64,000 nt of DNA from Spinacia oleracea. Taxonomy: Eukaryota; Streptophyta; Magnoliopsida; Caryophyllales; Amaranthaceae. The position numbers and the translations under genes were made by a program. The notes under the pieces are model-generated. The model worked only from the letters and a program-made list of their open reading frames with translations, did not search any database and was not told the DNA's origin. Positions within the stretch are counted from its first letter, which is position 1; each line of letters begins with the position of its first letter. The stretch spans positions 15,028,001 through 15,092,000 of the forward strand of contig NC_079489.1 in the NCBI RefSeq assembly GCF_020520425.1. Direction: 5' to 3'. Positions 9,582 to 46,366 of this stretch are shown here, piece by piece.

Positions 9582-12500
9582 ATGATGAAGAAACAATGTT
9601 GTATTTTCTACGTGATGATGATGAATGTGTTCGTCTTCATACCCATCCTGGTATTGGGGCAAGGCAATACAACAGAAACAACGCCAAGAGAACTAAGAAT
9701 CGCGATCCCGGTGCGCGAGTTCAAGGATTGGGTAAGTGTCGAACATGATCCCAATACAGGAGAGCAGATCATCAGTGGGTTCGCTATCGAAGTCTTTAAA
9801 GCTGTTGTAAATAAAGGTCTTCTTTCCCCAATTCCTTACAAATTCATCCCCTTTGTTAAGTCTGATGGTGTCACCATGAATGGCACTTTCGATGATATGC
9901 TTCGAGCCGTCTTCAATCAGGTACATAATTAAAGTCATAATTTTATCTGTATCTATACACTACAAGAAATTGTACCATTAACGACGGGAAATCCCGTCAC
10001 TAAAAGCTAATAATCGTTGATTAATGATAGAATTTTCTGTCGCGAACCCGTCGGGTCCGTCATTAATGAAAAATCCCGTCGTTAAGCCGTCATAAAAGAC
10101 ATTTGCGACGGTTGCTCCCGTGTTTGTTTGGTTGTTATCCCCGTCACAAAAGTCTTTTACAACGAAATTTTTGACCCGTCGTTATTAGGTTGTCATTAAA
10201 AATACAAATTATTGTAGTGCTAATATACAAAAGGATAAATTACCTAATGATAGGAGTAAAATATCTTTTAATTAACGACTAGATGTGTGCATTCATGGTA
10301 CAACTAGTTGTTCACTTATTGATCAACAACGGAAACATTGAAGATTGCCTAACAAGTCCATACCTAAAATAATAAATAAACCTGAGACGTGTCTTTCAGT
10401 GAGAAATAGTTCAAAATAAAAGTAACATATCACATGTTGTTCTTTATAATGTCATAGTCTTTTTTACATATGAACTCAGTGTTCTCTTTGTGCACAATAT
10501 GTCCATAGTCCAAGCACTTTGAAAACTTTTGATTTCGTATTTCTCTATAGTGTTTCATAGCAATACCTTTCTAATTTTCCGAAAATGATAAAGGTCGCAA
10601 CATGCGACCTTTAAGCCGTGTCATAATGATAATATGACATTCTTATGTGTCATGATTTAAATTGGAAACTAAAATATTTAATTTATATAACCTATTTTAA
10701 AAAAAAGGTAGGAAAATTTTAATATTCTAATGTGTTTCTTTCTTTATATCGAGTATCTTATTTACATATTTTGATAGTAAAAATATTCTGATGACACATA
10801 GCATACGTGACGCCTATATATACCAATTATACTCCAACACGTAAAATTGCGACAACTAAATATTGTCGCTACTTGCAACCTTTTAATTTTTTTATATGAG
10901 AGTTTTATAGAAATATTGCACTAACATACATACATAACATATTACAAGCAGGAATTCGACGGTGCGGTGGGGGAGATATCGATTCTATATTATAGAACGG
11001 AGTGGGTTGATTTTACATTACCATACATGGATACTCAAATATCAATGTTGATTCGCCAAAATCAACAGCCATTTTCAAAGGGGGGAGGAATTTCATTAGC
11101 ATCAGCCACTAAGTATGTTGTTGCTGCAACACTTTCCTTCAGCTTCATTGTAGCAATGGTTTTCTGGATTTTGGAATACAGAACTGACAAGCATGCTTCA
11201 CAATTCACAAACACAAGCTCATTAGCACAACCCCCTCGATCTCTTGATGACGATTGGCGAAGTAAGTAGCTCGTTTTTGCTCTTAATTTGACAAATAAAC
11301 ACCACAAGAATTTGTATCTTTAATGACAACCTAACAACGACGGGTCAAAAATTCCGTCGTAAAAGCCTTTTGCGACGGACTAACAACCAAACAAAGACGG
11401 GAATAACCGTTGCAAATGTCTTTTACGACGGGTTAACGACGGGTTTTTCCATTTATGACGGCCCCATTTTATGACGGGTTTGCGACAGGAAATCTCGTCG
11501 TTAATCAACGATTATTTGGCCTTTAGCGACGAGATTTCTCGACATTAATGGTATAATTTCACTACAAGAATTTGTATCTTTAACGACAACCTAATTACGA
11601 CGGGTCAAAAATCCCGTCGCAAAAGCCTTTTGCGACGGGGCTAACAACCAAACAACGACGGGAATAACCGTCGCAAATGTCTTTTACGACGGGTTTACGA
11701 CGGGATTTCTATTAACGACGGCCCCCTTTTATGACGGGTTCGCGACAGAAAATCCCTTCGTTAATCAACGATTATTGGCCTTTTGCGACGAGATTTCACG
11801 TCGTTAATAGTACAATTTCTTGTAGTGTTTCTTGTAGTGAAAATATGGCTTTGGTTAATTATTTTTTGTTGTAGGAGACATGTTGGGGTCAATAACACAT
11901 ACAAGGCTTGTGATGATACTATTCTTCATGGTATTGTTAATCCTAATGGCTTGTTATTCTGCGAGCCAGACATCATCCCTTACCTCACGAAGTCGGAGTG
12001 GCGGCTTCAACAACTTGAACCAATTGATAAGGAAGGGATCAAATGTGGGTTATCGAGAAGGTTCATTTATCAAAAACCTTCTTATCGAAAAAGGTTTTTC
12101 AGAATCGAAGTTAATAATCCTTGATTCCGAGGAACAAATGGTGGAAATGTTAACCAAAGGAACTGAAAATGGTGGTGTTGATTCTATTGTTGCTGATTCC
12201 CCTAATCTAAGGCTTCTCCTTGCTAAGCATTGCGACTCTTTTACCATCGTCCCTTCCGTCAATCTCCCCGCTGCTGGATTTGGCTTTGTACGTATACATT
12301 ACTACTCCCTCTGTTTCCTTTTGTTGGCTACGCTTCCTTTTTAGGCGTTCCTTTTTGTTGGTTACGTTTCTAGTTTTGGACACTTTTTTTTCCCAAAACA
12401 CCCTTATATCCTTTCTTATTTACCAAAATTACCAAAGATTCCTTCCAAATTCCCACCTAATTTTCCTAACCATCAATATTGAATTCATTTACTTTCCCCA

Positions 12501-13561
12501 TACCCTCTCATCCACCCTTTTCCTATTTCTTTAATACTTTCTCTCTCCTTACTTTGTTCTTTAAATATACAATCTCTTTCACCCAATCATTACTCAGATT
12601 CCAATACAAACCAAGATTCTAGTTTTCTTAAAACGAAAATGATAAAGGTCGCAACATGCGACCTTTAAGCCGTGTCACAATAATGACATGGCATGCTTAT
12701 GTGTCATGATTTAAATTGGAATCTAAAATATTTAACTTATATATATCCTATTATACATGTTTAAAATAAGGGTAGAAAAATCTTAATGTTCTAATTTGTT
12801 TTTTTCTTTATATCGATTACCTTATTTACATATTTTCATAGTAAAATTTTTGCATTGATAGTAAAAATATTATGATGACTAATATCCTACGTGGCGCCTA
12901 TATGTACCAATTAAACGCCGACACGTAAGATTGTGACAACTAAATGTTGTCGCAACTTGCTACCTGTATCATCACCCTTCTTAAAAACCACCCCATTTCC
13001 CAAAAGTAACCAACAAAAGGGAACGGAGGGAGTACCTTGTTAGCTTCAAATTTTCTCAATATGTTTTCATGAATATTAAGAGAAAACGGATGTGATTAGC
13101 AGATAAATATAAGGTAGTTAATTACAACATTTTTTCCATAAGATAAATTTTCACAAAATTATAAATCCAATTTTATAAGGTATTTTTAGACAAATTTATC
13201 TATGTTTAACTTGCTTGTGCTAACATAAATTGGTTAATATGTCGTGCAGGCTCTACGCAAAGGTTCCGCTTTAGTAAATGAGTTTTCAAAGGGAGTATTA
13301 AGAGTGATTGACAATGGTGACTTGGGAAGGATCCAAGAGAGGACAATTGGAAGTTTTGAAGCGTGTGAAAATGACCCGTACAATTCGGGTTCAAACCAGC
13401 TTTTGGATAGTGATAGTTTATGGATCTTGATTGCCGGTGGTATTAGTGTGTTCATCCTCATGGTTATCATCTTTGTACTCTATTGCGGATTCAGACACAA
13501 GGGTACTAATAAGAAGAACAAATCCGTTGCCTATCCGTGTTACTTACTCCCATGTTGTTAG
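9582..13561 (+). CDS. Glutamate-receptor-like protein without pore, copy 1 (GLR1)
   Basis: Exons are 9582-9920, 10952-11261, 11875-12287 and 13250-13561, all with GT-AG borders and one open frame of 457 codons. There is a signal peptide (about 1-26). Ligand-binding half S1 starts at LRIAIPVREF and includes the arginine in YYRTEWVDFTLPYMD (about residue 128), the position that holds the ligand carboxylate in this family. A membrane segment M1 (167-190) is followed by a hydrophilic linker, then M3 (about 225-247) with CYSASQTSSLT in place of SYTASLTS. S2 carries two conserved cysteines (KHC, FEAC), and M4 (412-436) follows. Normal plant GLRs have about 900 residues, an N-terminal LIVBP domain, and a pore helix between M1 and M3; both are absent here. 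Introns 1 to 3 hold MITEs. Ion conduction is unlikely; ligand binding is inferred. Confidence 0.85.
9958..10219. mobile_element. CACTA-type MITE (GACGGG family) in GLR1 intron 1
   Basis: 262 bp, starting CACTACAAGAAATTGT and ending ATTATTGTAGTG. The interior has repeated CGTCG/CGACGGG words in both orientations. Flanks are ATA and CTA, a possible 3-bp duplication with one change. It is the most diverged of the copies here. Confidence 0.85.
10585..10885. mobile_element. MITE with GATAAAGGTCGCAA end, copy 1
   Basis: It begins ATGATAAAGGTCGCAACATG and is closely similar to the copy at 12639-12973, for example in the shared GCGACCTTTAAGCCGTGTCA. Its right end is degraded (TTGCAACCTTTT). It lies in GLR1 intron 1 and is noncoding. 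The superfamily is not certain. Confidence 0.7.
11300..11839. mobile_element. CACTA-type MITE (GACGGG family), outer copy with nested copy
   Basis: It starts CACCACAAGAATTTG (one change from CACTAC) and its last nine bases are CTTGTAGTG at 11831-11839. It is flanked by AAA on both sides as a 3-bp target duplication. Without the nested copy it is about 269 bp. It lies in GLR1 intron 2. Confidence 0.9.
11560..11827. mobile_element. CACTA-type MITE nested inside the outer copy
   Basis: 268 bp from CACTACAAGAATTTG to TTCTTGTAGTG, flanked by TTT on both sides (11557-11559 and 11828-11830). It inserted 12 bp from the right end of an older copy of the same family, leaving the tandem TTCTTGTAGTG motifs seen at 11817-11839. 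Confidence 0.92.
12303..13034. mobile_element. Stowaway-like MITE in GLR1 intron 3, interrupted
   Basis: The left arm reads TACTCCCTCTGTTTCC with TTTTGTTGG. The right arm reads CCAACAAAAGGGAACGG, then AGGGAGTA. These form a clear terminal inverted repeat of about 30 bp. Its middle is interrupted by another MITE at 12639-12973. The start is only 15 bp after the exon 3 donor site. Confidence 0.85.
12639..12973. mobile_element. MITE with GATAAAGGTCGCAA end, copy 2
   Basis: The left end is ATGATAAAGGTCGCAACATG. The right end, read on the minus strand, is GATGATACAGGTAGCAAG. This gives an imperfect inverted repeat of about 25 bp. It is related to the copy at 10585-10885 and nested in the Stowaway-like MITE. 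Confidence 0.8.
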
Positions 13562-18841: not shown

Positions 18842-18859
18842 CACTAGTGGAAAAAAATA

Positions 18860-19205
18860 CCTGTTGAGGGGGGCACTTTGGGCTTATTGAGGCGAACAAG
18901 GCCCGCTTCGACAGACGTGGCTTCAACAGCTCACATAGCTGTTGAGGCGGGCTTTGTTCGCCTCAACAGGTGGTCTGTTGTGGGGGGCTTTCAAAAGCCC
19001 GCCTCAACAGCCCAAAACCAAAGCGAAAAAATAAGGACCTGTTGTGGGGGGCTTTACAAAAGCCCGCCTCAACAGACACCTCTGTTGAGGCTCACTTTTA
19101 AATGCCCCCCTCAACAGACCTGTATTCTTGCGCCAATACCTGTACATTGGCGCCATAAATTCATATGTTGTCGAGGCGTACATTAAAAGCCCCCTTCAAC
19201 AACAT
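18860..19205. repeat. Left subterminal repeat zone of the outer CACTA
   Basis: Multiple direct and inverted copies of CTGTTGAGG, CCTCAACAG, AAAGCCC and GGGGGGC over about 345 bp. The right zone at 31165-31330 carries the related TTGTTGAAGCG words. Confidence 0.85.
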
Positions 19206-19740
19206 TATTTTGTTTTCCAAATTCTTTTAAAATATAAAATAGGTGGCAATAACCAAATCTATATATATATACACCATTGAGTATTGAAACCTGTACACGC
19301 ACCAATCAACACCAGAATAGCAAAGGTATGAATCTGCTTATTTTTTTATTAACAAATCGATCATTAAATTAACTTCATTTATATTAGCCTAATAAAGAAA
19401 AACGTATAGTACGTACGTTTACCATTTTTAAACACCTAGCTAGCTAGTCTAACAAATTAAAACTAATATTAACAAATAAAGACAAAAGGCTAGAGACCTA
19501 GTCTAACAAATTTCTCTAATCCGGCCACTTAGCTCCCTTTAGATCGATCATGCATTACGTACAAACCTTAATTAAGGCCGTGTTGACTTTCTAATTCCAA
19601 TCGACTCGATCCCTGCAAGATGGAAGGAAAATATATGAGCTATAGAGTACCAAAGTTCACACTCACGATATTATCTTTACATTCCATTGAAGCATAAAAA
19701 GATATAGTTGCAGACTATAGAGATAATTAAGTTGTTAAAA

Positions 19741-20116
19741 ATATGACCTATAACGAGCCTTAAATGTGCATAAATAGATTCGAATGAGTTTTAGAAAGTT
19801 AAAACTATGCATATTAATCATGTAATAAGAATCAAATGAGTCCTTAGGTTCTTTAGTTCAAAGTTGGGAGAGAAAATGTTATTTTAGCTCTAAACATGAC
19901 CTATAACCACCCAATGAGCCTTAAATGTGCATACGTAGATTGGAATGAGTTTTAGAAAGTTAAAACTATGCATATTAATCATGTAATAAGAATCAAATGA
20001 GTCCTTAGGTTCTTTAGTTCAAAGTTGGGAGCGGAAATGTCACCTAAATATGACCTATAACGATCCTATGAGCCTTACATGTGCATAAATAGATTCAACT
20101 GAGTTTTAGAAAGTTA
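19741..20116. repeat. Tandem repeat, about 155-bp period, three units
   Basis: Units start at about 19743, 19898 and 20049, each with ATGACCTATAAC and GAGTTTTAGAAAGTTAAA. The third is incomplete. It is noncoding and inside the outer CACTA element. Confidence 0.8.
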
Positions 20117-20270
20117 AATTGTGTTCTTTCACTTAGTTCTTAATGCTAAAATCAGAATAAGTGTCTATATTTCTAGATGCACAGATGTATGCTTGGATTT
20201 CATGGAAATTCCTGAGAATCATCCATGTCTCAGGAACTAACACTGCCAGGTTAAATAAACATATTGTCTG

Positions 20271-20395
20271 CTGATTCCTAGAAAGTGACAGACGTTGAAG
20301 AAACCAGAGGGATATTTTTATTTATGCCTTATCAGTTGGTAGAAGAAGGTAACTATGTGATTTATAAAATGAAAATAATGGTTTGTTGTAGCTTA
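20271..20395 (+). pseudogene. Unidentified exon-like fragment
   Basis: Open plus frame VTDVEETRGIFLFMPYQLVE after a TTCCTAG acceptor-like site. It looks like host coding sequence picked up by the outer CACTA element, but I cannot name the gene. Confidence 0.3.
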
Positions 20396-20682
20396 AAACC
20401 ATTATTTTTACGGTTTTTTCATGAAATGCCCCTGAGGTTTGCAAAAACGCACCAAATACCCTCGCGTCTTTTGAATCACATAATATACCCCTATTTTTTC
20501 ATACTGTTCATGAGATGCACTTGGAGTTAACGGACGTTAGTCCTCCGTTAGCTGCAGTTTACCATTTTGCCCTTAATATATATTTTTTGACCTAAAATCA
20601 AAAAAAAAAAAAATTCTCAAACTTCTCTCCAAACTCTTCCTTCGATTCCCTAACCTCAAACATATCTCCCTTTCCGATTTCC

Positions 20683-21222
20683 ATGGCGAACCATTCTTCA
20701 ATTCATTTCACTTTCCTTGGCCTATCTAATCACACCGATTTCCCTTCGAATTCGATTCAACAATTTCCCAATTCATCTCTCAAGTCGATTAAATCGCTCA
20801 AGTTGCACAATTTTTCAATTGTTACTGATTCCGATTTGGGGGTTATTTCCCAGTTCATCACAAATTTGGAGGAGTTGGATGTAAGTAATCCAAAGGATGA
20901 TTACTGCGTTACTGGTGTTTCTGGTGGTGGTGGTGCTGCTTTAGGGATCACTGATGAAGGCGTTGATTTGATTGCTTCGAAGCTCCCTCATCTCAGAAAA
21001 GTTAATTTGTCTAGTAATTACTTCATTTCTGATAAATCTCTTATTAATCTTTCTGAGAAATGCTTAAATTTGGAGGAGATTATAGTAAACAATTGCAATT
21101 TCGTGACTCAAACTGGGTTTGCTTTTGCTTTACAAAATTGCCAGAATTTGAATTCTATATCTGTTCTAGGGATGGATTTGGTTTTTTCTCCTGAGATTGA
21201 TTGCAAGTCTGCAAGGGTCTGA
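20683..21222 (+). pseudogene. Captured F-box/LRR-type gene fragment
   Basis: An open frame of 179 codons starts MANHSSIHFTFLGLSNHTDF and holds cysteine-type leucine-rich repeats of the F-box/LRR kind: SLKLHNFSIVTDSDLGVISQ, then ITDEGVDLIASKLPHLRKVN, ISDKSLINLSEKCLNLEEI and FALQNCQNLNSISVLG. In full genes of this class such repeats select substrates for SCF ubiquitin ligases. Here the F-box is missing and the repeats stop early at 21220, so the protein cannot act as a ligase subunit unless the fragment does something new. It fills much of the Pack-MULE and is in plus orientation with its own ATG. Confidence 0.65.
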
Positions 21223-21384
21223 TGTTTTTGTTGATGTTCCTCTGTCAAAGTATCCTGAGATTGATGTTTTTGTTGTAACATGCTGGTGGCTCTGGTGGAT
21301 TGGTGGTCAATATACAGCTCTAGAATTTTGGCCTTAAAATCAATATGCAGTTCTAGAATTTTTATAAGGTGATGGTGAGCCGAT

Positions 21385-21663
21385 ATGTCACTGGCTATGT
21401 TACTTTTGCTCTTCATTTCTGGGGATACTTTGACAGAGGAATATGCTCAGTACCAATTAAGTAATGTTGCATCAAATTATGAAAATATTTACTCTTCTAG
21501 CAGCAGCAGTGAGTTCGATTTTCCAACTTGGAATACACAATCTCCTGCTACTCTTTATCCTAGCACAGCAGGCCGAATTACTAGTGAATTCATTTTGTTT
21601 GTAGCTTTGCTTAGAATTCAAAATGTTACTGGTAGAAGCTACTTTGCAGACCACTTGTATTAA
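21385..21663 (+). pseudogene. Second captured fragment in the Pack-MULE, unidentified
   Basis: Open frame with LTEEYAQYQLSNVASNYENI, a serine run and EFDFPTWNTQSPATLYPS. The composition is protein-like, not repeat-like. I do not recognise the source gene. Confidence 0.35.
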
Positions 21664-22209
21664 ACATGGTTGTTACGCAACTTTCTTTCTTTTGATAGTA
21701 TAAAACTTACTGGACTAGCCATTTGAATCAAATTCTGCCGTTTAAAAGCAGTTTGGGTATTTCGTGCAAATAAGTTTACAAGTAGGTGTATATTGTGTAA
21801 TACATTTATAAATAGGTGCATTTGATGAATTATAAACATGACTTAACGGAGGACTAACGGAAGGTCGGCTTAGGGGTATTTGGTGCAAACTTAGGCAAAA
21901 ATAGGGGTATATTATGTGATTCAAAAGACGCGAGGGTATTTGGTGCGTTTTTGCAAACCTCAGGGGCATTTCATGAAAAAACCGTTATTTTTAATTATTT
22001 ACAGAAAACCCACCTCCTAAAAACAGACTACTTTACCTGCTACTTGATAAAACGTTATCCTTAAGAAATTTCTGGGTAGATACAGATCGTTGTTGAATAA
22101 ATACAGTATTTTATTCCATATTGGTTTAACCCATATCCTAATAATCAATTTTCCTAATGGTTGTGTATGAAGATCATAGTCTCATGGAAATAGAAGAATA
22201 AAAGGGTCA

Positions 22210-22402
22210 ATGCCTATAGTATTTGCATCAATTTTAGCAAGAAAATTAACTAAGAAACGGCTAGCAGTTGTCGTCTTGTTACACTAGCATTACTAGTTCA
22301 TGTCATAGTTTGTTTTACTCTGATCAAAGCTGCACCTCAAACTTCACTAATTACCAACTTACCAGGATTCACTGGCAACTTCCCTTCTAAGCACTACTCA
22401 GG
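22210..22402 (+). pseudogene. Captured first exon of a serine carboxypeptidase-like gene
   Basis: The reading has a hydrophobic leader (ALLVHVIVCFTLIKAA) and then SLITNLPGFTGNFPSKHYSG followed by a good donor (GTAAGC). This is the N-terminal signature of plant serine carboxypeptidase-like (SCPL) proteins, which are secreted or vacuolar hydrolases and acyltransferases. The likely ATG at 22210 is in another frame from the leader, so one base has been gained or lost. No catalytic residues are included. It lies in the outer CACTA element. Confidence 0.7.
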
Positions 22403-22955
22403 GTAAGCTCTTCAAATCGCGTTCATTTTTGTCTTCTAATTTTGTCTGGTGTTATGCTGATCAAGTCAGCCAGGCCTGCCAGCCATTTTCCTGCTTGATT
22501 AGTTTGGCCAATTTTGGGATGTACTTAGCCTGATTAGATTGTTTAGGCCATTTAGGTTTTAAGGCTACTTCAGGTCAATCCAGTCCCCAGTGCACCCTAT
22601 GAATCTATGATCAACTCTAGTCAGTCCCCAATACAAGTATCTATTTTGACTATCAATTGTGATTTATACGGAATACTTGAGAAAAAAATACTTAAGATTT
22701 TCTTACCTTTTTTGTGACACCACTAAGGTATCAGGAAAGCTACCTACTATCGGGCAACATACCAAATATTTGCAATAACAAGTATATCTGAACCATCTGA
22801 CTAAATCAACAAAACCAATCATAACCACCAGAACTTAATGAAATAAACTGGAGAAAACAGATAATAACCACTTCAAACTTTCGTATTAAAGGCAGCATAA
22901 AATAATAAAAATGCAGCAAATTAAAATAACCAACAAAACTTTAACATCATCTCAC

Positions 22956-23092
22956 CTTGACAAATCCAGGACGACGATCCAGATTCAAATGCAGGTTCTT
23001 AATATGACCGACATCTCCGAAAGCATTAAGGAGATCCTCTTCCTGTGCCTCTTCATGCACTCCTGTGACAAGTACAATCCAGCCTTCAATTG
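22956..23092 (-). pseudogene. Captured exon of Y14/RBM8A
   Basis: A 137-bp exon with acceptor TTGCAG and donor GTGAGA reads [20 protein letters not shown] and [18 protein letters not shown]. This is the first half of the RNA-recognition motif of the exon-junction-complex protein Y14 (RBM8A), with the RNP2 strand but not RNP1. It is in minus orientation in the outer CACTA element. Splice sites and frame are intact, so it could be included in a transcript, but it cannot form a complete RRM. Confidence 0.8.
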
Positions 23093-23430
23093 CTGCAATG
23101 AATCAAACTTTGTTAGAATTCTGCTTGCAGAAATTTCAACTTAATTGTAATCATATAAAAGGAAAGAGAAATACAGGGAAATTTAAAATTCAACTACTAC
23201 AACTCTGAAATTCACAACCACAAGCAAGACTTCAGCAGTACATATATAAGAGCTTGTATCCTTTCCTTTTAGATATAAGAGAATTGAAACGAAACATAAA
23301 TACCTTTCCATATCTAAGGAAAGGAAACAAGCTCGGACCCCTTGTTTATCAGAGTTGGTTATGTTTGATCTGTCAAGCTACCAAGGAATACAGACAAGAG
23401 AAAAAGAAAAGAATATGTCTAAAGGTTTAC

Positions 23431-23531
23431 CTTCAAGGGAGGAGACTTGGTGACCTCTACAGTCGGAGGCTCGGAGTCAATTTGGTCAGGATTCTCTATT
23501 CCCAAGTTTGGAATTACAAATTCATCAGTGT
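23431..23531 (-). pseudogene. Captured exon of unknown origin
   Basis: 101 bp bounded by CTTCCAG and GTAAAC, open as TDEFVIPNLGIENPDQIDSE then PPTVEVTKSPPLK. It is upstream of the Y14 exon on the same strand. Its end phase (0) does not fit the start phase of the Y14 exon, so the two were probably captured separately. Source gene not recognised. Confidence 0.5.
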
Positions 23532-24008
23532 CTGGAAGTAGCATGAGAATGAATTAAATAATACAATGAAAAACTGACTAAAAAGTACGAACGTTCAGGT
23601 TCAGAAATCAACAGAAATTCCAACAAACTAAAAACATGGTTTGCTAATCATGGAAGAGCAATATGCTTTTTTTCCCAACCTCCTACCCACATATTCTACT
23701 CCGTACTGTCTTCTTCCCTATCTTCCCTATATTTATTTATGTAGCCTTGGCCTATATCCATGCATAAGACCAAGAAAGTGTGGATCAAAATTACAATAGC
23801 GGGTTAGCACTCCATTTACAAGAACTCACGATTCTAGTCCTTGTAACTTCTATCTTGCATCACTTTAGTAATTAAACACTTTTTTCAGTTTTCAAACATT
23901 TTGCCTACACAAAAACTTCTAAAAAAAGGAAATTTTAACATGAATGAGAACCTAATAGGTCATTCTCATTCCTTTCATGTATATATATACTCCTTATATC
24001 TATAAGTT

Positions 24009-24279
24009 ATTCCCTCCGTATTTTAAAAAGACATACTTTGACCGATACATAATTTTAGGAGAGTGAGTTGAGTTTATTAAAATAAGATGAAAGTGGGGTA
24101 GTGGGTGGTGAATTATTTATTATAGTAAAAAGATGATGTGAGTAAGTGTGGTAAGAAAGAGAGAAATATTAATATAAGAGAAGTGAAGACCAAAATATGT
24201 AAAAAAAAGAAAGTGTATATCTTTTTAAAATTCAACCGTTTACGAAAAGTGTATCTCTTTTTAAAATACGGAGGCAGTA
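24009..24279. mobile_element. Stowaway-like MITE
   Basis: The left arm is TATTCCCTCCGTATTTTAAA and the right arm TTTAAAATACGGAGGCAGTA, giving an inverted repeat of over 20 bp. The interior is AT-rich and noncoding. It is nested in the outer CACTA element. Confidence 0.85.
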
Positions 24280-25711
24280 TTTAAATTCTTATAGGTTCTA
24301 ATTTTAATTTTCAGACAATGTGAACGACTACCCAAATTTTGTTCTCGTCAAATTTAATATATTATTACTAATTTACTATGTCTACATGTTAGTGAAGGAC
24401 TACCCAAAATATATTTTTAGAACCAGAGGGGGCAGATCAATTGATCTGACTTCAGTTGCGTAACATGATTTTGAATATTTCAAAAAAAACAAACACTACT
24501 ACAAAAAAGGGCATAGAGTACTGTTGAAATACACTTTATAGGACGCCTTAGAGGCGTTCTCCAACTCAGCGCACTATAAAGTTTATAAAACGCGTAAAAT
24601 AAGCGTTTTATATACCTAGTTATAAAGTACAGTGATAAGAGATAAGCGTCCTCTATTCCCTTCCTAAAATCAGAAAATAAAGAAGGAATGTAGAACGGTT
24701 AACGTACATAACCGTCTCCTATACTCTATAATAAAGCGCGCCTTCCGTACATAACCGTCCTCTATTCTTCCTGTTAAATATTGAGATATAGAACATCTTA
24801 CGTACATAGGCGTACTATATACTTCATGTTTAATATTAAGATAGAAAGTTGTTTTCTTACACAAACGTTCTATATTCTACCTTTTTTTAATATTATTTAA
24901 AAATAGCAGCACACACATCCCTAAAATAGGATATTACGATTCTAGTATGTAAACCAAATCTAAATAGATAAAATAAAAATGATATTCACATGATCTTTCC
25001 AAAAATCCTTTCATTCAATAACAAAATAATATTGTTCGTTCAATAACAAAATCCTATTATTCATTGATAAAATATAAATGATCTACACAAGGTACGGCAA
25101 AAACAAAAAATCCAATATTACTATAAAAATAAAAATAAAAATAAAAAATAAAAAATTCAAAGACCTAGCCTCTGCAGCAGCCACTGGAGCTTCTGCAGCA
25201 ACTGGGGATGGTGTAGCAGCAAGAGCAGCTTCTGCAGCAATAACAGATTCTGCAGCAACAACTTCTACAGCAACAGCAGAAACCCGTCTTGGCAGTTCTT
25301 CTGCAGGAATGAACTGAGGTAACCATCTACTTGAGCTAGCTTTAGTCACACTAGATCATCGTCATCATCATCATCTTCTTCGTTATTTGGTTGGTGATAT
25401 TCGGTAACGTATGAGCCTTTATTGGTGTTCGGCTACCATAGCAAGAATTTGAGTTCGGATATTTTTGCACTTTTAAGCTTAGCTAGAAGCAAGAGTAAAA
25501 TACTTCAAAGTACCTATAATAAAAATTGGGGAAAAACCGATGCAAAGTGTTAACGATCAACTCTACGATTGCTAATCTGCAGTCGTAGTGTTGGTCATGT
25601 GAGTGTGCTGTAAAATAACAGGGGGCAAAAGAAACACTAAGACTTAGGACTTGGATCCACATTTTACAAAATTAATAATGGAAAATACTTTAACAGTACG
25701 GAAGTTGTAAC

Positions 25712-27105: not shown

Positions 27106-27579
27106 CTGATTCATGCAGAAAGAAATCAGGCAAATCAGGGAAAGAGTCAGTGTAGTCTAAACTGACTGAATTTTGTACTTTTATGCTAATATATGACCTT
27201 AGGCATCTGTTTGCCATTCTTAAATCTGATTAAGCTGAATGGTTAACACTACCAATATAACTACTGACTTTCAGTTCGTCATTCTTAAATCTGATTAAGC
27301 TGAAGGGTTAACACGTACCTTATTTCAGGGAAAACCAAATGAACATGCCAAATAAAAAATCATGACTCTTGGTATTAAAATAAAAGTTGGGTAAAGGAAA
27401 TTCAGATATTGCTTACATGAGGAGTCTGAGGACATAGGGAGGAATCGGGGATTTGGAGGGGTATATGGGTCATTGTAACAAATTATTAAGTCCTTTGTTA
27501 CATTAAAAGTAAAAATTGGCAATTTGAGTAATGAATGCAGCTACAAATTGAAAGAAAGAAAGAAAGAAAGAATACATAC

Positions 27580-28857
27580 ATTTGACGGTGAAAACATTAA
27601 TTCATGCACAGGCCCTTCATGACCACTTAGAACATCAAGCAAACGTCTTGTTTTCATTGACCAAACAAAAATCTGACAGAAAAAAGAGCATATTGTATAA
27701 GATATGTTCTACAACACAATACCAATATGAGGATTGAGGGGTGAAACCTTTTAAATAAATATGTACCTCAAATGAGTCTAAAGTACCAACACATATCACT
27801 TCACCACTCTGATCAGCAGTTAAAGAAACAAACTGCCTAGGAGAAGGTGTAGTAAATGTCCTAAAGTTCTGATACCGGAAAAGATCCCATGCACGAACTG
27901 TTCCACCCAAAGACGCACTTAACAGGCTATGATGGTTAGCCATAAAATGGAGGGTTGTGACTGCATTAGTATGTTCGGGAAATGTCACAAAACAAAATCC
28001 TGATGAGACATTCCAAACCTGCAAAACGGAGGTAAACTTAAGCATCTAGTCACGGAAGCCTGCGAAAATAGCAAAGCCTGCTATTATATAGCACAAATGC
28101 AATATACAGTGCAAGATGAATACATCTATATTCAACCGCAAATACACAAAGTAACCTTTCAAATAATCATGTCAATTTACTCAATGACAGTTCAAAGGTT
28201 GGAGCTCAAAATATCTGACAAACATAACAGATCAACGAAATACAAAAGGAGGGAATAAGCAACAAATAGACACTGGCTATGCAAGAAAAGAAAATAGACT
28301 GCAATAAATTCAACATCAGCTCACCTTGATTTAGTTATCATCAGCTCCAGTAGCCAGGAGCTGAGAATCAGGTGAATAAGCAAGACAATTCACGTCCAAA
28401 TAATGGCCCTGTTGCTTCAAAATATAACTCTCTGACTTCCATTCCCACACAAGCAGCGGGCCAAACCTTGCACATCCAAAGGTCAACCAGTTACCCAAGT
28501 CATTAAAAACAACAGTAGTGATCTTCTCCCGCAAAATCGATAACAAGTGTATGCAAACAAAATCAGGCATTAGTACAACCCAAAAGCCCCACTTGAATAC
28601 CCCACAACTACAAGATCAATCCCCTGGTGATAATCGCAGGCAGTCACTTTAGCCGGTGCTTGCATAAAGTAATCCTTCTTCAGTAACTCCCACTTCATCT
28701 TATGCAACAAAAGCTCACTTCCTTCATCCTCAAAATCCTTTTCTTTCCCATCAAACTCCTTCCTCTTCTTCACACTATCCACGACATTAACATCATCGCC
28801 ACCAACACCACCCTCCTCGTCCATCTTATCAGGCGTCTCTCTAACTGCAAATTTCAA
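27580..28857 (-). pseudogene. Captured PWP2 (UTP1) WD40 exons
   Basis: Four pieces follow the order of periodic tryptophan protein 2, a WD40 subunit of the U3 small-subunit processome. 28857-28570 has KVTACDYHQGIDLVVVGYSS. 28570-28325 has LGNWLTFGCARFGPLLVWEW and HYLDVNCLAYSPDSQLLATG. 28018-27767 has LFRYQNFRTFTTPSPRQFVS. 27672-27580 has KTRRLLDVLSGHEGPVHELM. Damage: TAA plus a frameshift at about 28568-28573 where LYQMPDF is expected, and a nonsense TAA at 28333-28331 after ATGADDN. Introns with GT-AG borders are retained, so genomic DNA, not cDNA, was captured. It cannot encode a working beta-propeller. Confidence 0.85.
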
Positions 28858-29699
28858 TTTAATAAGACTTAAATCATATTAACAATGTGATTGGACTAAA
28901 TTCACTAGATTTTTCGACAATAATCCTACTAAATTAAATGTAATAATTATTATACCCTCGTCTTTGATTCGACCTAAAACTTCAATTATGAAAGTCTTTT
29001 CCACACAAGTATCAACATGGATTCGACATTACAATTTCATAAATAAGAAAATTATTAGTTGACGGATAAAGATATACAACAAAATTAAGATTACCAACCT
29101 CGAAATTCGGAGTGTGGAGAGTCGACGTTCACCAGAAGTTGCAAAGAAGCAGCGGTACAGTAGTGCGGCGGTGATCCGTGGTGGTGCGTGATTATGGTTT
29201 AGGTTTTGCGGGAGATTGAATTTGGGGGGTTTTGTCAGAAAAGTTTAGGTTTTGCTCGATTATGGTTTAGGTTATGCAGGAGATAGAATTAAAAGTTAGA
29301 ATGTGTAGGTTTTGGTTTTTCCTAGAGGTTTTGATTTTGCGGGAGGTTTGATTAATTTAGCCTGCCGCCATTGCTTTGGTAGAATTAGTGTTTTTTTTAT
29401 AAAATAAATAAATTAGAATATAGTACGCAGTTATCAACGACTTAAAACACCGCTTTATATGTTATTGATAGATTCGATTCATATACATGTATATATTAAA
29501 TATAATTATTATTTTATTATGGTACAAAATATGAAACGGTTAGGTGACGCAATCGTTCTCTATTCTTTCTCCCATAGAACTGTTATTAGAGAAAACCGTA
29601 CTCTATTCTCCTATGAAACGCTTAACACATGTAACCGTACTCTATTTAGCGTTACTTATTCCAACTTTTGTAGTAGTGAAAATCAGAATCCAAACAAAT

Positions 29700-30490
29700 T
29701 TATAGATGAAATCAGGAAACTTTGATTAAGTAATTAAGTTGTACTGTTGTAGATGAAAAGAGAAGTTACCTGGGACTCATCATATCGATCTACAATTAAC
29801 AATTTTATCTCCGAAATTCAATCAGACACTTGCTAAATAAGATCAATATCAAAGAAAATTCGAGTCAAACTACATCGCATCATCAACAACAAATAAAAAA
29901 AATACTAAGTTCATTTTGCTAACTGCTTAGAGACTCCATAATCAAATTCAATTGAGAACAAGTACATAGTTTGCTAGCTATCTTATTGATTGCACACAGT
30001 TATGAAAAATAAATAACATAACATAACTTAAAGGTGATGTAAACACCATTCAAGACACATAATTTCTGGAAAATATTCATGTTAGTTGAAGAATGATCGA
30101 GAAATAAAGTCCGACGTATATGCGTAGTATCATAGAAGTAGTTTCAAAGATTCAATATTGAAGAACCACCTCATTCTACTAAACACTCTCCATTTAATCC
30201 ACCCCAATGAACATTTCTCTACATCTTTACATCAAGAAAACAGTCTACTAGGGACACAAACACAGTGCCTATCCGAAACCACACAAGGCAGCCACATACA
30301 CGGATACACCCAAAGACATGGGAAACTCAAAATTAGCTGCCAATCATAAACATATATGGCAACATACTGAAATTCCAAATTCTCATAATCTTTCTTCAAT
30401 TAGATTCAAGATATCTAGTTTGAAGTTCAGTTTTAGCACAACAAAAAAGACCAGGAATCAAGAGGAATTCATAAAAATAAAAATTAGGAG
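29700..30490. other. Noncoding stretch in the outer CACTA element
   Basis: No convincing gene. It may be intron sequence captured along with the RBX1 exons that follow on the minus strand. Confidence 0.35.
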
Positions 30491-30499
30491 AGAGAATAC

Positions 30500-30925
30500 C
30501 CCAAGCAACAGTACACTCTTCACTGGTAGCACTCGCCTGGTTTGCTTGGCACTCAATGCCTATTCAAAATCAACATCAACAAATCAAAATCAATTTTTGA
30601 CAAAAACCTTTAAAATAAATTACCCTAAAAAATTGAGGGAAAAGAACTCACAGAGATCCATGATGTGGTTCCTACAAATTGCGCAATTATCGACCACAAT
30701 ATCTGCCGAAAATCGACCCCGAAAATCAACAAAAAACAGTAGAGAATCCTCCATTAAATTAGGGTTAGGGTTTATGAAGATATTTGAAGCTAAAATGGTA
30801 GAAATAATAATTACCCCAAGCCCAGAGAGAAACGGCGTTCCTTTTTTTGATCTCGAAACGCTTCGATTTCTTGATAGATGAAGATGGGCCAGCAGCAGCG
30901 TTAGAACCCTCGCCGACGGGAACAA
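30500..30925 (-). pseudogene. Captured RBX1 exons 1-3 (half RING domain)
   Basis: Exons 30925-30815, 30702-30652 and 30559-30500 join in frame. Pieces read [20 protein letters not shown], then DIVVDNCAICRNHIMDLC, then [20 protein letters not shown]. This is the N-terminal half of RING-box protein 1, the cullin-binding RING subunit of SCF-type ubiquitin ligases: the cullin-binding strand and the first zinc ligands are present. The second half of the RING is missing. No start Met is seen at the left border of the match. It lies in the outer CACTA element, minus strand, with all splice sites intact, unlike the damaged PWP2 copy. Confidence 0.85.
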
Positions 30926-31352
30926 AATTTGACACCAAAAACCAATCTCTATTCCCAAGAACAATAATTCAAAATTAACAGAAAAATTCAGTTATGAAGA
31001 CACCTTCTTTGAAATTATAGAGAATGAGGGAGAGAAGATCTTCCATGGAAAGGGGCGGATGGTTTGAGGAGTTTTGAACCGGGAAGAGAAGAGAGAGAAA
31101 TGAATATTTCAGGCTAACAGAAGAAATGAGGAGGAGAGAGAATTAAAAATTAGAGTATATGCGAGTAGTATTTGTTGAAGCGAACATTTAATGCCCCCTT
31201 CAACAATTGCTATTGAAGCGAACAATAAAAATGTTCGCTTCAACAACCCTTTATAATGTTTGACCCGCGTTGACCAATTACTTGTTGAAGCGTATTTCTC
31301 TATGCCCCCTTCAATAAGGGGGCTGTAATAAGTGTTTTTTCTACTAGTGTGG

Positions 31353-32587: not shown

Positions 32588-35500
32588 TCAGTCCCGTACA
32601 GTAAGATAAAAGTATAACAGTATAACCACAAGTACGACAACAAATATGGCACTCGCTATTGGGAGCCAAAGAGACACTCGTTCTTGAAACGTGGAACCAA
32701 TGGCTTCAGTCGTCTTTTCCGGACATTTATTATCCAAATCACCAATCGTCCTGTCTTGAATCGTTTTGATCTCACCATTGTCAATTAGTCTTACAATTGC
32801 TTCCGAGAATTTGTCAACTAAACGAGGTGATTGATTTTTAGGAAATGCCTACATGAGAAACCAGATCGAACATAATGTGAGAGTGGATGCATCACCAGAT
32901 AAACATATATACAACAATTTAGTACTTTTGATAGATCGAGGGGAAAAGATACTTAAGCTAGCTTGAATATACTACACAAAGTTTAAAGTGTTTTTAATCA
33001 ATGCAAAAAGGTGGAGAATAAGTATTGGAAATAAAAAATGATGAAGAGAGAGTTACAAAGTAAAAATGATGTAAACTGTATTTGATCTTTGGTCTTGAAC
33101 CCCCAAGACGTACTTTAACTCACTACAAGAATTTGTATCTTTAATGACAACCTAATAACGACGGGTCAAATATCACGTCGTAAAAGCCTTTTGTAACGGG
33201 GATAACAAACAAACAATGATGGGAACAACCGTCGCAAATGTCTTTCAAGACGAGTTTACGATGGGATTTTTCATTAATGACGGCCCCCTTTTATGACGGG
33301 TTCGTTACAGGAAATCCCGTCGTTAATCAACGATTATGCGCCTTTAGCGACGGAATTTCCCGTCGTTAATGGTACAATTTCTTGTAGTGACTAACTAAGA
33401 TCATTGACGTCCACAAGATTTTCAATATGCCATTACTTGTACTTAGGTTTTATTATAATTAACAAAAATGTATACCCCCTCCGTCCCTTAATACTCGCAC
33501 CAGTTTGACCTGTGCGGAGTTTAATACATTTGAATTGACTTATTAATTTAATGGGTGTTAATTGATAGTGGAGTATTTTTTAATATAGTTAGTGGGAAAT
33601 GTGTAAGCGGTGGGGAGTAGTGAGTGAGGGGTGTGGATTTTTAAATGATTTTTTGTAGGAAGTTAGGGGTGTAGGTGGGGTAGTAGGTAAGTGTGAGAAA
33701 TAATATATAATATTGATAAAGATTTTCATTTATAAAAGCGGTGCAAATATTAAGGGACGGCCCGAAAAGGAAAGCGATACGAGTATTAAGGGACGGAGGG
33801 AGTACATACAAAGGAGAAGAGGAGTGAAAGAGACATACAAAGCCAAGTCCTGTGGATTTGAGACGGAAATTGGGGACTAGAACAAAATCATCGCAATGAT
33901 TCTCTTGGAAAAGCTTAAGATGATGAGTTCCAGCAATAAGAGCGTCAACACCGCCCTCTTCGGTTCCTTTTTGTAGCTTGTCGAGCATTTCCACTTCTGA
34001 ATCCAACTCTACCAATTGCGATTCCGATAGACCTCCTTTACTTACCAACAAATTTTTAACAAAGGCACCTTGTCGATAACCTACCTTCGATCCCTTTCTT
34101 TTAAGGTCATCTAGGGTTTTTATATCACTAACCTGGCGTTGGGTTGGAAGCGATAATGATGAAGTTTGGCGTGGCATATAAGAAGATATCGTGAGCAGTG
34201 AAACCATTAGAACTAGTATAATAGCTAGTCTTGTGTACATTATTGATCCCATTATTGGCTCTGCATTATTAAAACACAATTAAAACATAATACAAGGCTA
34301 ATAATTGGGGATGTCAACCATATTGTATGTACGTTAGATTATATACCCGTTTTTCTTATATGCACCCGGAATAAGGTACCTCCACTAATATAAAAAAGTT
34401 TACATGCTCATGTACCTATGTTAGAGATGGTCAGTGGGTCGGGTCTGACTCAATCCACCGTGACACAGCTCCCATAATGGTCACGTGGGTAGGAACCACT
34501 TATGATCCTTGACACAATCCGCCCCACTCAGATATTTTTCTTGATTTGTCATGGGACGAGCTTTTTCAACACAACCCATATCAACCCACCACATCAGACC
34601 TGACACAACCCACCATGACACACCCGACCCACCCAACCCGAAACACAAACCCAACCCTGTGACCCACCAAACCCTCCATCCTAATTTAAACTATTTTTAA
34701 TATTTAAAATGCTAATAAATTTTAGTTTTATAGTTTAAATGTACATTAACTACACTTATAAGAGTATGAAATAACATAAAAATTTATTAAGTTCATATAA
34801 AATTTATAATTTTTTAACGCTTAAGTAATCATGCAAACCCACCTGACCCAAATAAGCTCCTAAAACTCGTCTAAATCCTTCTAACCCACCTGAGCCCTCA
34901 GAGTCACACCAAGCCCCATAACCTATCGTAAATCACCAAACACATCGGACCCACTCAACCCGCACAACCCATCACGACCCATGACCCATGTAACCCACGA
35001 CCCATCATGTACTGTGTCCATTTTTCCGGACACAACCCATGATTCGACCCACCTTAAGTTAACTGAGATAGGTTGTGTGTCAATTATCCTTGACCCACGA
35101 CACACCAAACTCACCCTACAGGCCATCTCTAACCTAGGTGCACCATTCTTTTTCAACTTATTACAAATTGTATATATTTACCTGCAGGTCGTAGCGGTAA
35201 CTTCTTACGGTTGTATTGACAAAATATCCTAATCCAGAAGACAACTGCGAGAAAGACGCCAATGCCGAGTATACCGATTAGTGTCGAAATCACTATTGTG
35301 GCTGGTGTGAGAAGAGCGCTTTCTCGGGGTTTAGAGGCCTGCACTCGAACCAACATGCCTATCTCCGAGTCCAAGTAAGGCATTGTAAAATCCACCATTT
35401 GCATCCTATAATGTAATATTGTTGTCTCCGCAATCGCACCATCGTACTCCTGTTCTTGTAATGGAATTATTTGTGGTTTAATTATCAATCGAATATCCAA

Positions 35501-35882
35501 AATATGACTATTAATTCTAGATGGTAGAAGGGGGAAAAAGATGCACCTTATTGTTGACGGCCCGAAGCATATCATCGAAAGTGCCATTCATGGTACCATC
35601 TTCCTTAGAAAAGGTAAAGAACTTGTAACGAATAGAAGGTATGGCAAACTCGGCTGCAGCGTTGAAGACATCGATGGAGAAACCACTAAAATTCTTCTGC
35701 CCGTTGCTCAAATCTATGATTTTCACAAACTCGTTCAATTCTCTGACAGGAACTAAAAATCGTAGCTCCTTTGGCAACGTTGTTGTTTGGTTTGTGCTAT
35801 TCTGGCCTATTACATGGACAGGGTAAGCAATGAAAGAAATTGCGAAAAGCAATATCAGAAGGGAATTAAAATATTTCTTCAT
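32588..35882 (-). CDS. Glutamate-receptor-like protein without pore, copy 2 (GLR2)
   Basis: Exons are 35882-35547, 35449-35182, 34260-33839 and 32848-32588, with GT-AG borders, the same phases as GLR1, and 428 codons open throughout. Signal peptide 1-26. S1 begins ELRFLVPVREL. The family arginine is in LHYRMQMVDFTMPYLD (about 127). M1 is about 163-188. The linker is only about 24 residues, hydrophilic, with no pore helix. M3 is about 211-230 and is followed by SYMPRQTSS. S2 has the cysteine pair (NHC, NKC); M4 is about 400-424. At the S2 site where GLRs carry an acidic residue, this copy reads ALIAGTHHLKLF. Intron 2 is filled with GACCC/CCCACC words; intron 3 holds two MITEs. It is divergent from the kinase at 37174. 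Any binding function is inferred from the fold. Confidence 0.85.
33121..33389. mobile_element. CACTA-type MITE (GACGGG family) in GLR2 intron 3
   Basis: 269 bp from CACTACAAGAATTTG to TTTCTTGTAGTG, flanked by ACT at 33118-33120 and 33390-33392. Closely similar to the copies in GLR1 and the second kinase. Confidence 0.93.
33473..33804. mobile_element. Stowaway-like MITE in GLR2 intron 3
   Basis: The left arm has CCTCCGTCCCTTAATACTCG and the right arm CGAGTATTAAGGGACGGAGG, a strong inverted repeat with a TA border. It ends 35 bp from the exon 3 donor. A second copy of the same family is at 36167-36482. Confidence 0.9.
34430..35130. repeat. GACCC/CCCACC-rich degenerate tract in GLR2 intron 2
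   Basis: About 700 bp dense in ACCCACC, GACCCA, CGACCCA and GACACA words. It is not a simple tandem array. It makes up much of intron 2 and includes frames that look open but are repeat by-products. Confidence 0.65.
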
Positions 35883-37173: not shown

Positions 37174-40062
<2,889 letters not shown>

Positions 40063-40490
40063 TACGTATATACTATCATGACTCATAAGAGCTAGCTGCC
40101 TGATTTAGTACATAAAATATGGGTTTTATCTGTAGTTATTGTTAGTAGCAGTTAGATGCCTCTAATTACCGGCTTTGTCATTGGTTTCGATGGACAATTG
40201 AAAATATATTTTTGTTTTCTTTGCTTTGAATTTACAACGTAGTTTTCGTCTTTCAAACCCGAGATCCCCTCATCACCCGTGTTGCCTATCAGTGGATCCT
40301 TCTGAGTTTAGACTAGTTATAGTGGAGAAAATGATCAGATCACAAATCAACCAAAGCAGAAACAGTTGCATTTACATATGTATATACATTAACTTTGTGT
40401 CTGGGGTAAAGCAGTCATCATAAGAATGAATGAAAACATGACTATAGAACAAGCACGAGACATACGTCATGGAAGCCGGAAGGTGGTGAC
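40063..40490. other. Tail-to-tail spacer between kinase 1 and GLR3
   Basis: About 430 bp without a gene; it must hold the 3' ends of both convergent transcripts. Confidence 0.5.
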
Positions 40491-42502
40491 TTATTTCATC
40501 ATGCTCATTACTCCACAATAAGATAAAAGCATAACAAGCACGAGTACAACAACGAATATGGCACTCGCGACTGGGAGCCAAAGAGAGATAATATCTTGAA
40601 CCGTGGAACGGGAACCAACACTGCTGTTACTGTTATCTTGACATATCTTATCCAAATCCCCAATTGTCCTTGCTTGAATATCTGCGATACCTCCATTGTC
40701 AATCAATGCTACAATTGCTCTTGAGAATTTATTTGCTAAAGAAAGAGGATGACCTATTCTAAAAGCCTGCATGAGAAAACCAGCAATTATGTAAGCGCAT
40801 CATCTAGTAGAAACAGAGGAACTAGAAACAGAGAAAGAGAGGTATGTACAAAGCCAAGTCCTGCAGATTTGAGACGGAAATCCTCGACGAGTGTAAAATT
40901 AACACAATTCTTTTCTTGGAAAAGTTTGAGATGATGTATCCCAGCAACAAGAGCATCGATACCATCCTCTTCACCTCCTTTCTGCAGCTTGTGAAGCAAT
41001 TCTACTTCAGATTTCAGTTCTACCAATTGTGATTCCTCCAGACCTTTACCAACCAACAACTCTCTCACAAAGGCTCCTTGTCGATAGCCTACCCTTGATT
41101 TCTTCCTTATAAGATCATCAAACGTCTTTATGTTGCTAACCGAACGTGGTGTTGAAAGTAGTGAATTTGAAGTTTGGCGTGGCGTATAAGAAGCTATTGT
41201 GAGGAATAGTACCATTAGAGCTAGTATAATCACTAGTTTCGTATACATTATTGATCCCAAAATTGATCCTGCATTATATGAAATGGGTATTCGTAATCAA
41301 GATACATGGTAAATAAACGTTTGCTAAAACAAATGTTGATTAAGGTAAGCAGCATTCTGAGACATGTTACTGAGGTAAACAAACTTTGAATGTCTTAATT
41401 CTCTCGACATAACTACCTAGATAAGGTACAGTCTTGATAAGATATACTCTACATGCCAATTTTCTAGGAAGACTAAGAAATGGACCACAGCTAGACGAAG
41501 AAGAGCACTGTTCCGACTACTAAAGAGCCGAAGAGACGTGTCATTTCCAAACGACAAAATTAATTGGCAAAAAGGGGACTAACTCCTCAAGTCTATAAGT
41601 TTTCACAATATTAGACAATTCAGATGCGCACAAGAAGAGGATTAAACACTTCCATGTTATCATTCAAGTTAACAACGATTATAGATAAGGCAATCATGAT
41701 AATACGATGATTAAACACTTCCCTATCTTTATGTCTAATTTCATATTATTATATTATTACCTGAGGCTTGTGTCGATGGCGATGCATATTTGAATTTACA
41801 TAGTTTCCAAATCCAGAATACTACTGCAACGAAGATGGCAGAGCCAAGTATAATGACTAAAACCAGAATTATTTTTGTGATTGGTGTGAGTCCCGTAAGT
41901 CTTTCTCTGTTTTCTGTGAGCTGCACACGCACTAGGATGCCTATCTCTGTGTCCAAGTAAGGCGTTGTAAAATCGACCAAGCCCATGTCAATCCTATTAC
42001 TTACTATTGTTATCTCCCCAACTGCGCCATCGTAGTCCTGCACTTGCAATATGAATTCTGTTCTGTCAATTATTCAATGTATATGGAATATCAAAAATAT
42101 ATGCTCCCTTCAATTCGTCCAATAGCATTTGCATACCAAGTTAATTAACAACATACTCACCTGAATATCGACTTCCTTGAGCATTTCATCAAAAGTGCCT
42201 TTCATCGTCCCTGCAACATTAATATAGGGCTCGAATTCGTATTTATGCGAAGGGATGGCGATTTTCGCGGCTTGCTCGAAGACTAAAATGGAGAAACCAC
42301 TGTATTCATAGCTACCATTTTTCAAATCTCTAACTTTTACAAAATCATCCAACTCTCTTTTAGGTACTAAAAACTTTAGGGTTCGCGACGTATCTGTTTC
42401 ATTCGTCGAACCCGTACCATCCTGACCGATTACATGGGTGGCTATGCAGAAAATTGTGAAGAGTGATATTAGAAGGGAAGTACCACAATTCTTCCTCTTC
42501 AT
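40491..42502 (-). CDS. Glutamate-receptor-like protein without pore, copy 3 (GLR3)
   Basis: Exons are 42502-42161, 42037-41761, 41268-40850 and 40766-40491, with GT-AG borders and 437 codons in frame. Signal peptide 1-26. S1 begins TLKFLVPKREL. The family arginine is in IVSNRIDMGLVDFTTPYLD (about 129), with two extra residues before VDFT relative to the other copies. M1 is about 167-191, followed by a hydrophilic linker of about 25 residues. M3 is about 216-235 and runs into SYTPRQTSN. S2 has the cysteine pair (KNC, KIC) and ALVAGIHHLKLF, again without the acidic residue. M4 is about 407-430. This is the most compact copy, with the shortest introns and no MITE. I searched intron 2 for a skipped pore exon and saw none. 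Head to head with the second kinase. Confidence 0.87.

Positions 42503-43296: not shown

Positions 43297-46366
<3,070 letters not shown>

Follow-up and report, generated by a model that had tools for sequence, protein, structure and literature searches.

Gene models and domain architecture of GLR1, GLR2 and GLR3

The window analysed here, a 64,000-nucleotide stretch of the Spinacia oleracea genome (contig NC_079489.1, positions 15,028,001 to 15,092,000), carries three paralogous genes related to the plant glutamate receptor-like (GLR) channels, designated GLR1, GLR2 and GLR3. Gene models rebuilt from the window DNA gave 457, 428 and 437 codons, respectively, with no internal stops and GT-AG borders at all nine introns; codon counts, strands and span are identical to those of an earlier reading made from the sequence alone (the sequence-only reading), which had described the three genes as intact. 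Each gene is predicted to encode, in order, a signal peptide, ligand-domain segment S1, membrane segments M1 and M3, ligand-domain segment S2 and membrane segment M4. The models, in window coordinates, are as follows.

9582..9920, + strand: GLR1 exon 1, signal peptide and start of S1 (gene model; Pfam Lig_chan-Glu_bd, SBP_bac_3)
10952..11261, + strand: GLR1 exon 2, remaining S1, M1 and a hydrophilic tail (end DDDWR) at the place of the pore helix (gene model, linker analysis)
11262..11874, + strand: GLR1 intron 2, 613 nt, phase 1, with MITE-like sequence inside; pore-coding exon not found (motif scan)
11875..12287, + strand: GLR1 exon 3, M3 plus the larger part of S2 (gene model, Pfam)
13250..13561, + strand: GLR1 exon 4, S2 end, M4 and C-terminal tail (gene model)
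35547..35882, - strand: GLR2 exon 1, signal peptide and S1 (gene model)
35182..35449, - strand: GLR2 exon 2, S1 and M1 with shortened tail, donor CAG|GTAAAT (gene model)
34261..35181, - strand: GLR2 intron 2, 921 nt; pore-coding exon not found (motif scan)
33839..34260, - strand: GLR2 exon 3, M3 and S2 (gene model)
32588..32848, - strand: GLR2 exon 4, S2 end and M4 (gene model)
42161..42502, - strand: GLR3 exon 1, signal peptide and S1 (gene model)
41761..42037, - strand: GLR3 exon 2, S1 and M1 with shortened tail, donor CAG|GTAATA (gene model)
41269..41760, - strand: GLR3 intron 2, 492 nt; pore-coding exon not found (motif scan)
40850..41268, - strand: GLR3 exon 3, M3 and S2 (gene model)
40491..40766, - strand: GLR3 exon 4, S2 end and M4 (gene model)

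The Pfam profiles Lig_chan-Glu_bd and SBP_bac_3 scored above cut-off in GLR1 and GLR2, and the GLR3 ligand domain fell below both cut-offs (28.7 of 30 bits; 22.6 of 26.4 bits). The Lig_chan profile matched the three proteins only from position 64-66 of its 146 positions onward, that is, from M3. A GLR1-GLR3 profile aligned with AtGLR3.4 over S1 to M4 (E 3.8e-45), the AtGLR3.4 pore facing a gap, and likewise matched the AtGLR3.3 and AtGLR3.4 ligand domains; together with the exon models, this alignment supports the predicted order of M1, M3 and M4. Protein identity is 58% between GLR2 and GLR3 and 43% between GLR2 and GLR1. The sequence-only reading had also reported that the domain series was present without a pore helix, which the models, Pfam and the AtGLR3.4 alignment bear out, and that the amino-terminal LIVBP domain was missing; the Pfam scan gave no LIVBP-like match in GLR1-GLR3 or in the three of their relatives described below that were scanned (six poreless proteins, all but GLR5). 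Its figure of 24-35 residues for the M1-M3 linker requires revision, since by the present bounds the linkers are 33, 17 and 17 residues in GLR1, GLR2 and GLR3, two of the three below that range.

A poreless clade in the spinach genome

The 894-Mb assembly (242 contigs, six large sequences seen) was searched with the GLR1, GLR6 and GLR7 proteins as queries; the best candidates alone were scored, so that all family counts are lower bounds. At least four further intact poreless members were found, giving at least seven in total on two chromosomes.

GLR4 (L010) and GLR5 (L009 and L026): chromosome-3 cluster shared with GLR1-GLR3, just past the window end (genome search)
GLR6 (L011) and GLR7 (L012): contig C1 (genome search)

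GLR4, GLR5, GLR6 and GLR7 comprise 464, 434, 489 and 423 codons, respectively, with no internal stops. The four-exon frames are thus open in all seven full-length poreless copies, with identities of 44-61% among the six pairs compared. An exon-1 fragment with a stop (L013) lies at C1:15.29 Mb, and none of its other exons was found in two flanking stretches. A plasmid collection gave no match, as expected for a plant gene.

Trees were built from an alignment omitting the pore region and linker, with 12 pore-bearing sequences as the comparison for the seven poreless proteins (AtGLR3.4 and 11 loci from the spinach assembly, counted as loci and not as verified intact genes). Loci L017, L021 and L022 entered with parts missing; L024 (an M3 fragment) and L025 (stop-bearing, one of four near-identical copies) were excluded before counting. 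The three other L025-like copies lie at C6:137.0, C1:101.0 and C1:134.4 Mb. The seven poreless proteins formed one side of a branch with support of 100/100. Within the clade GLR7 and GLR6 branch first; the split that separates them has support of 95/94, and the group of the remaining five 100/99.

Against the Lig_chan (PF00060) gathering cut-off of 30.8 bits, GLR1 (34.5), GLR4 (37.2) and GLR6 (43.6) scored above and GLR2 (17.5), GLR3 (17.2) and GLR7 (21.5) below, and the match began at profile position 60-66 in all scanned poreless proteins except GLR4, where it began at position 7.

Replacement of the pore helix

In the 11 pore-bearing loci S1-M1 lies within one exon and M3 opens a later exon. 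Six of them (L014a, L014b, L015, L021, L022 and L023) carry the pore helix at the end of the S1-M1 exon, all six splice in frame to M3, and their intron stands at the place and phase of the poreless intron 2. This shared position indicates that intron 2 is ancestral, which in turn places the pore loss at the 3' end of exon 2. Among the pore-bearing loci, the clade-2-like L014a, L014b and L015 match GLR1 exon 3 best and share this exon 2/3 junction. They keep a YSFSTLVFSH-type pore at the end of exon 2, and the poreless clade forms a separate deep branch. In L016-L020, judged by the position of the motif described below, the pore-helix core appears to lie in a very small separate exon. Such an exon is easy for gene prediction to overlook.

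From M1 to M3 there are 33 residues in GLR1, GLR4 and GLR6 compared with 37-40 in the six canonical genes, and their hydrophilic linkers hold one or two aromatic residues compared with four to seven. The length is therefore largely kept while the character is changed: the pore helix was replaced in place and not simply excised. The sequence-only reading had tied the loss to the phase-1 intron 2; this does not hold, as the intron is ancestral and exon 2 of GLR1, GLR4 and GLR6 remains near its old length with its sequence replaced. The shorter linkers of GLR2 and GLR3 result from use of the earlier donors listed above; at that site GLR5 reads CAGGGAATAGGG and splices 24 bases later. The GLR7 linker retains six residues by hand-set exon borders. 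By hydropathy and aromatic content, the poreless linkers lack a hydrophobic aromatic helix.

A frameshift origin of the hydrophilic tail found no support, with none of 36 comparisons (four tails, three genes, three frames) reaching a p of 0.05 or less. The splice sites of intron 2 are conserved among the poreless genes, and blastn detected no homologous intron-2 sequence among the copies at E 0.01. In three of the replaced tails acidic-aromatic residues stand directly before intron 2, as DDDWR (GLR1, 11246-11261), DDFWR and DVYWK, at L011:2666-2681 and L009 reverse 3529-3544; judged from the residues, this end is a possible cytosolic docking motif, and GLR2 and GLR3 lack it owing to their earlier donor.

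Search for a pore exon in intron 2

Intron 2 of the poreless genes was scanned with a ten-position pore motif, whose residue sets were picked after viewing the pore-bearing sequences, so that the positive control is not independent; 50 mononucleotide and 100 dinucleotide shuffles per intron served as the null. All 11 pore-bearing loci scored 7-10 of 10 between the M1 and M3 exons, nine of them at 9-10, with L016 (8) and L017 (7) not above the best shuffles. The seven poreless introns 2 scored at most 6 of 10, within the shuffle range, in a scan that would not single out an exon as diverged as that of L017. Shuffled introns reached 6-8, and none of the 100 dinucleotide shuffles per intron reached 9. 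Likewise, a tblastn search of the whole window with two pore sequences matched only M3, apart from chance hits.

In GLR6 the three introns are 73, 108 and 120 nt. The 108-nt intron 2 is too short to hold a pore exon together with two flanking introns of the length usual in plants.

Ligand pocket and selection

Seven residues have been reported to bind glutamate in the AtGLR3.3 ligand domain (6R85), according to PMC10281673, and the pocket positions are numbered as in that structure. Arg88 and Phe133 are kept in all seven poreless proteins, and position 81 is acidic (Asp or Glu) throughout. Position 83 is Ser or Thr in all seven, likewise in AtGLR3.4 and most pore-bearing loci; AtGLR3.3 has Ala. 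Variation is concentrated elsewhere: the Glu177 position is Glu in GLR6 and GLR7, Asp in GLR1 and GLR4 and Gly in GLR2, GLR3 and GLR5; the Tyr180 position is Tyr in GLR6, Phe in GLR7, Asn in GLR1 and GLR4 and His in GLR2, GLR3 and GLR5; Arg11 is retained only in GLR1-GLR5. Since GLR6 and GLR7 branch first and keep Glu177, loss of the pore preceded loss of the canonical Glu177, which suggests that the ligand domain remained in use once the pore had gone. The chromosome-3 copies have diverged into two pocket types, so that ligand choice probably diversified after the pore was gone.

The ratio of non-synonymous to synonymous substitution rates (dN/dS) was estimated for five gene pairs, with 95% limits from 200 bootstraps. 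Whole-gene values were 0.28 (0.20-0.39) for GLR1-GLR4, 0.43 (0.32-0.56) for GLR2-GLR3, 0.48 (0.37-0.62) for GLR2-GLR5, 0.56 (0.42-0.72) for GLR3-GLR5 and 0.38 (0.27-0.52) for GLR6-GLR7. Taken separately, S1 and S2 had confidence limits that stayed under 1 in every pair; both are under purifying selection. The dN/dS test over the S1 and S2 halves that the sequence-only reading had proposed thus agrees with a real, maintained pore-lacking family, which comprises seven intact genes in one clade.

Linked DUF26 receptor kinases

Two receptor kinase genes with DUF26 (Stress-antifung) ectodomains lie beside GLR2 and GLR3.

37174..40062, + strand: CRKa, DUF26 receptor kinase, head-to-head with GLR2, 1.29 kb between starts (approximate exon borders)
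43297..46366, + strand: CRKb, DUF26 receptor kinase, head-to-head with GLR3, 0.79 kb between starts (approximate exon borders)

CRKa encodes two Stress-antifung domains and a kinase with DFGF, and CRKb has the same kinase motifs. Two Stress-antifung stretches were present in all three copies scanned (CRKa and the copies at L011 and L030). The Gly-loop, Lys, HRD and DFG are all found in CRKa, CRKb and the GLR5-linked CRKd; the GLR6-linked copy (L033) matched only HRD and DFG, and CRKe gave no DFG match and has one stop within the stretches read.

A genome search with the CRKa ectodomain gave 126 places. The best six, at 53-100% identity (five open, one broken), each have a poreless GLR within 3 kb.

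Open: CRKa itself; CRKb (63%); downstream of GLR4 (54%); downstream of GLR6 on C1 (54%); head-to-head with GLR5 (53%)
Broken (one stop, one frame change): a copy (89%) at 2.7 kb from the GLR5 3' end

Matches ranked 7-11 dropped to 35-38% identity, and short pieces ranked lower reached 80% (second piece of the broken copy), 41% (C6) and 44 and 51% (beside the C1 exon-1 fragment). A kinase of the CRKa type stands within about 2.1 kb of five of the seven intact poreless GLRs, and no DUF26 place was found near the 11 pore-bearing loci in the fetched stretches (flanks of a few kb). Furthermore, short conserved blocks occur in the upstream regions that GLR and kinase share, and one block pair has diverged in parallel, synonymous divergence (dS) being 0.73 between GLR2 and GLR3 and 0.72 between the ectodomains of CRKa and CRKb. 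The link to neighbouring kinases suggested by the sequence-only reading is strengthened by the placing of the best six ectodomain matches; a role of these kinases as signalling partners would go further than linkage.

Compared with CRK-type DUF26 kinases, the linked genes share the order of two DUF26 domains followed by a kinase, with motifs complete in three copies, and differ in forming a small divergent subfamily. The kinase of CRKa and CRKb, which carries GTPGYVDP, appears to resemble leucine-rich-repeat class I kinases more than the usual CRK kinases, and its union with a DUF26 ectodomain is a possible domain swap. The kinase ends of CRKb (window 45554-46345) and the GLR5-linked copy (L030:3704-4397) are 97% identical and their ectodomains 47%, a pattern suggestive of gene conversion or of recombination between array members.

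Proposed function and alternatives

By descent and domain order the poreless clade is GLR-derived, and by the pore test its members are not GLR channels. With the plant GLR channels AtGLR3.4 (PDB 7lzh) and AtGLR3.3 (6r85) they share the S1-M1-M3-S2-M4 order, the two-lobe ligand domain, Arg88 and Phe133, and differ from them in lacking the pore helix, the selectivity segment and the amino-terminal domain, with an M3 gate motif that is degenerate in most. The animal kainate-binding proteins and GluD, relatives of the ionotropic glutamate receptors, bind ligand and alone conduct little or nothing, and still encode the pore loop.

The explanation we favour, at a probability of about 0.5 for the whole, is that GLR1-GLR3 belong to a clade of GLR-derived, predicted three-pass membrane receptors without an ion pore, which would act as non-conducting ligand sensors, perhaps coupled to the linked DUF26 kinases. 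The S1/S2 clamshell would bind a small extracellular ligand; its closure, no longer used for pore opening, would move M1, M3 and M4, and the signal would pass by contact, in all likelihood to a partner. The foremost candidates for that role would be the linked DUF26 receptor kinases, of which three have a full set of catalytic motifs. In the sequence of events envisaged, the pore would have been lost first and the chromosome-3 copies would then have split into two pocket types. The ligand-binding, non-conducting family put forward by the sequence-only reading is retained as regards the ligand domain and the maintained lack of a pore, and the architecture would predict the absence of conduction. 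A more specific version, offered tentatively, is that a channel family became a plant ‘metabotropic’ GLR, with an amino-acid-type clamshell signalling through a co-inherited DUF26 kinase, the two duplicated and kept as a pair and the pockets diversified after pore loss.

Several observations weigh against this interpretation. As to the pore, the GLR4 Lig_chan match (profile positions 7-137) still covers M1 and continues through the pore stretch, and the GLR7 exon borders were placed by hand. In the ligand domain, Gly at the Glu177 site makes amino-acid binding by GLR2, GLR3 and GLR5 doubtful, as judged from the pocket residues. The region from M1 through the tail to M3 is near relaxed in GLR2-GLR3 (dN/dS 0.73, 0.45-1.30) and GLR2-GLR5 (0.87, 0.54-1.54), and for the 26 codons of M1 taken alone the ratio is above 1 in both GLR2-GLR5 and GLR3-GLR5. 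This relaxation of the membrane part weakens a signalling role for its helices. All dN/dS estimates given here are rough, with dS near or above 0.7 and YN00 failing for many comparisons. Moreover, the nearest kinase of the CRKa type lies 23.6 kb from GLR1 and none was found near GLR7, orientation varies among the linked pairs (three head-to-head, two downstream), and the dS of 0.64 for GLR3-GLR5 differs from the 0.86 (ectodomain) and 0.18 (kinase) of CRKb-CRKd. The linkage itself is explained by common block duplication, and joint function would be a further step.

The main rival holds that the poreless GLRs are dominant-negative or regulatory subunits, which join pore-bearing tetramers via S1/S2 and M1/M3/M4, silencing or tuning the channels from within, or which act as ligand decoys. 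Plant GLRs are thought to be tetrameric, with heteromers likely (PMC11479355). Pore-bearing GLRs are present in the same genome, and M1 and M3 are kept and, over M1-tail-M3, constrained in GLR1-GLR4 (dN/dS 0.21, 0.12-0.36). However, the poreless clade is a deep branch apart from all pore-bearing GLRs compared, and in the alignment most of its copies show a decayed M3 gate motif. The amino-terminal domain, which helps drive assembly in animal receptors, is also absent. On this balance we regard co-assembly as less likely than the sensor reading.

Ordinary decay, in which tandem copies of a clade-2-like GLR have lost function with their frames still open, would account for the stop-bearing exon-1 fragment and the near-relaxed GLR2-GLR3 membrane region, and a pear GLR without the amino-terminal domain was reportedly undetected in every sample (PMC4995503). 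It is nevertheless unlikely in view of seven full-length copies open over four exons at the identities given above, the S1 and S2 limits below 1 and the conserved intron 2 splice sites. Least probable of all, and very unlikely on present evidence, is that an unrecognised intron-2 exon restores the pore in some transcripts: L016-L020 appear to offer a precedent, but the GLR6 intron is too short for usual plant introns, the other six show no motif above shuffle level in a scan less sure for a diverged exon, and the window search gave only M3 and chance matches.

In a survey that covered 144 GLRs of four Rosaceae species (PMC4995503), the M2-pore is described as the most conserved GLR region in these species and Arabidopsis, 11.03% of plant GLRs are reported to lack the amino-terminal domain, and proteins without Lig_chan were dropped. 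Surveys filtered in this way would miss GLR2, GLR3 and GLR7, which score below the cut-off. A full-text literature search, with subscription journals mostly outside its coverage and some sources represented in part, found no description of pore-lacking plant GLRs. The maintained seven-gene clade implies that a GLR ligand domain can be kept for a use other than gating, and provides a test case for a direct path from amino-acid sensing of the GLR type to kinase signalling.

Transposable elements in the window

A 12.5-kb CACTA-type DNA transposon occupies window 18842-31349, with ends CACTAGTGGAAAAAA and TTTTTTCTACTAGTG and TGG on both flanks. It is inserted in an apparent LINE (long interspersed nuclear element) and carries host-like gene pieces, which from the appearance of the open reading frames we take to be an F-box/leucine-rich-repeat-like frame near 20596 and WD-repeat-like exons near 27635-28878. 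Short elements resembling miniature inverted-repeat transposable elements (MITEs), with CACTACAAGAAATT-type ends, lie at 9958, 11560-11827, 33121-33389 and 45205-45473, in GLR1 and GLR2 introns and inside CRKb.

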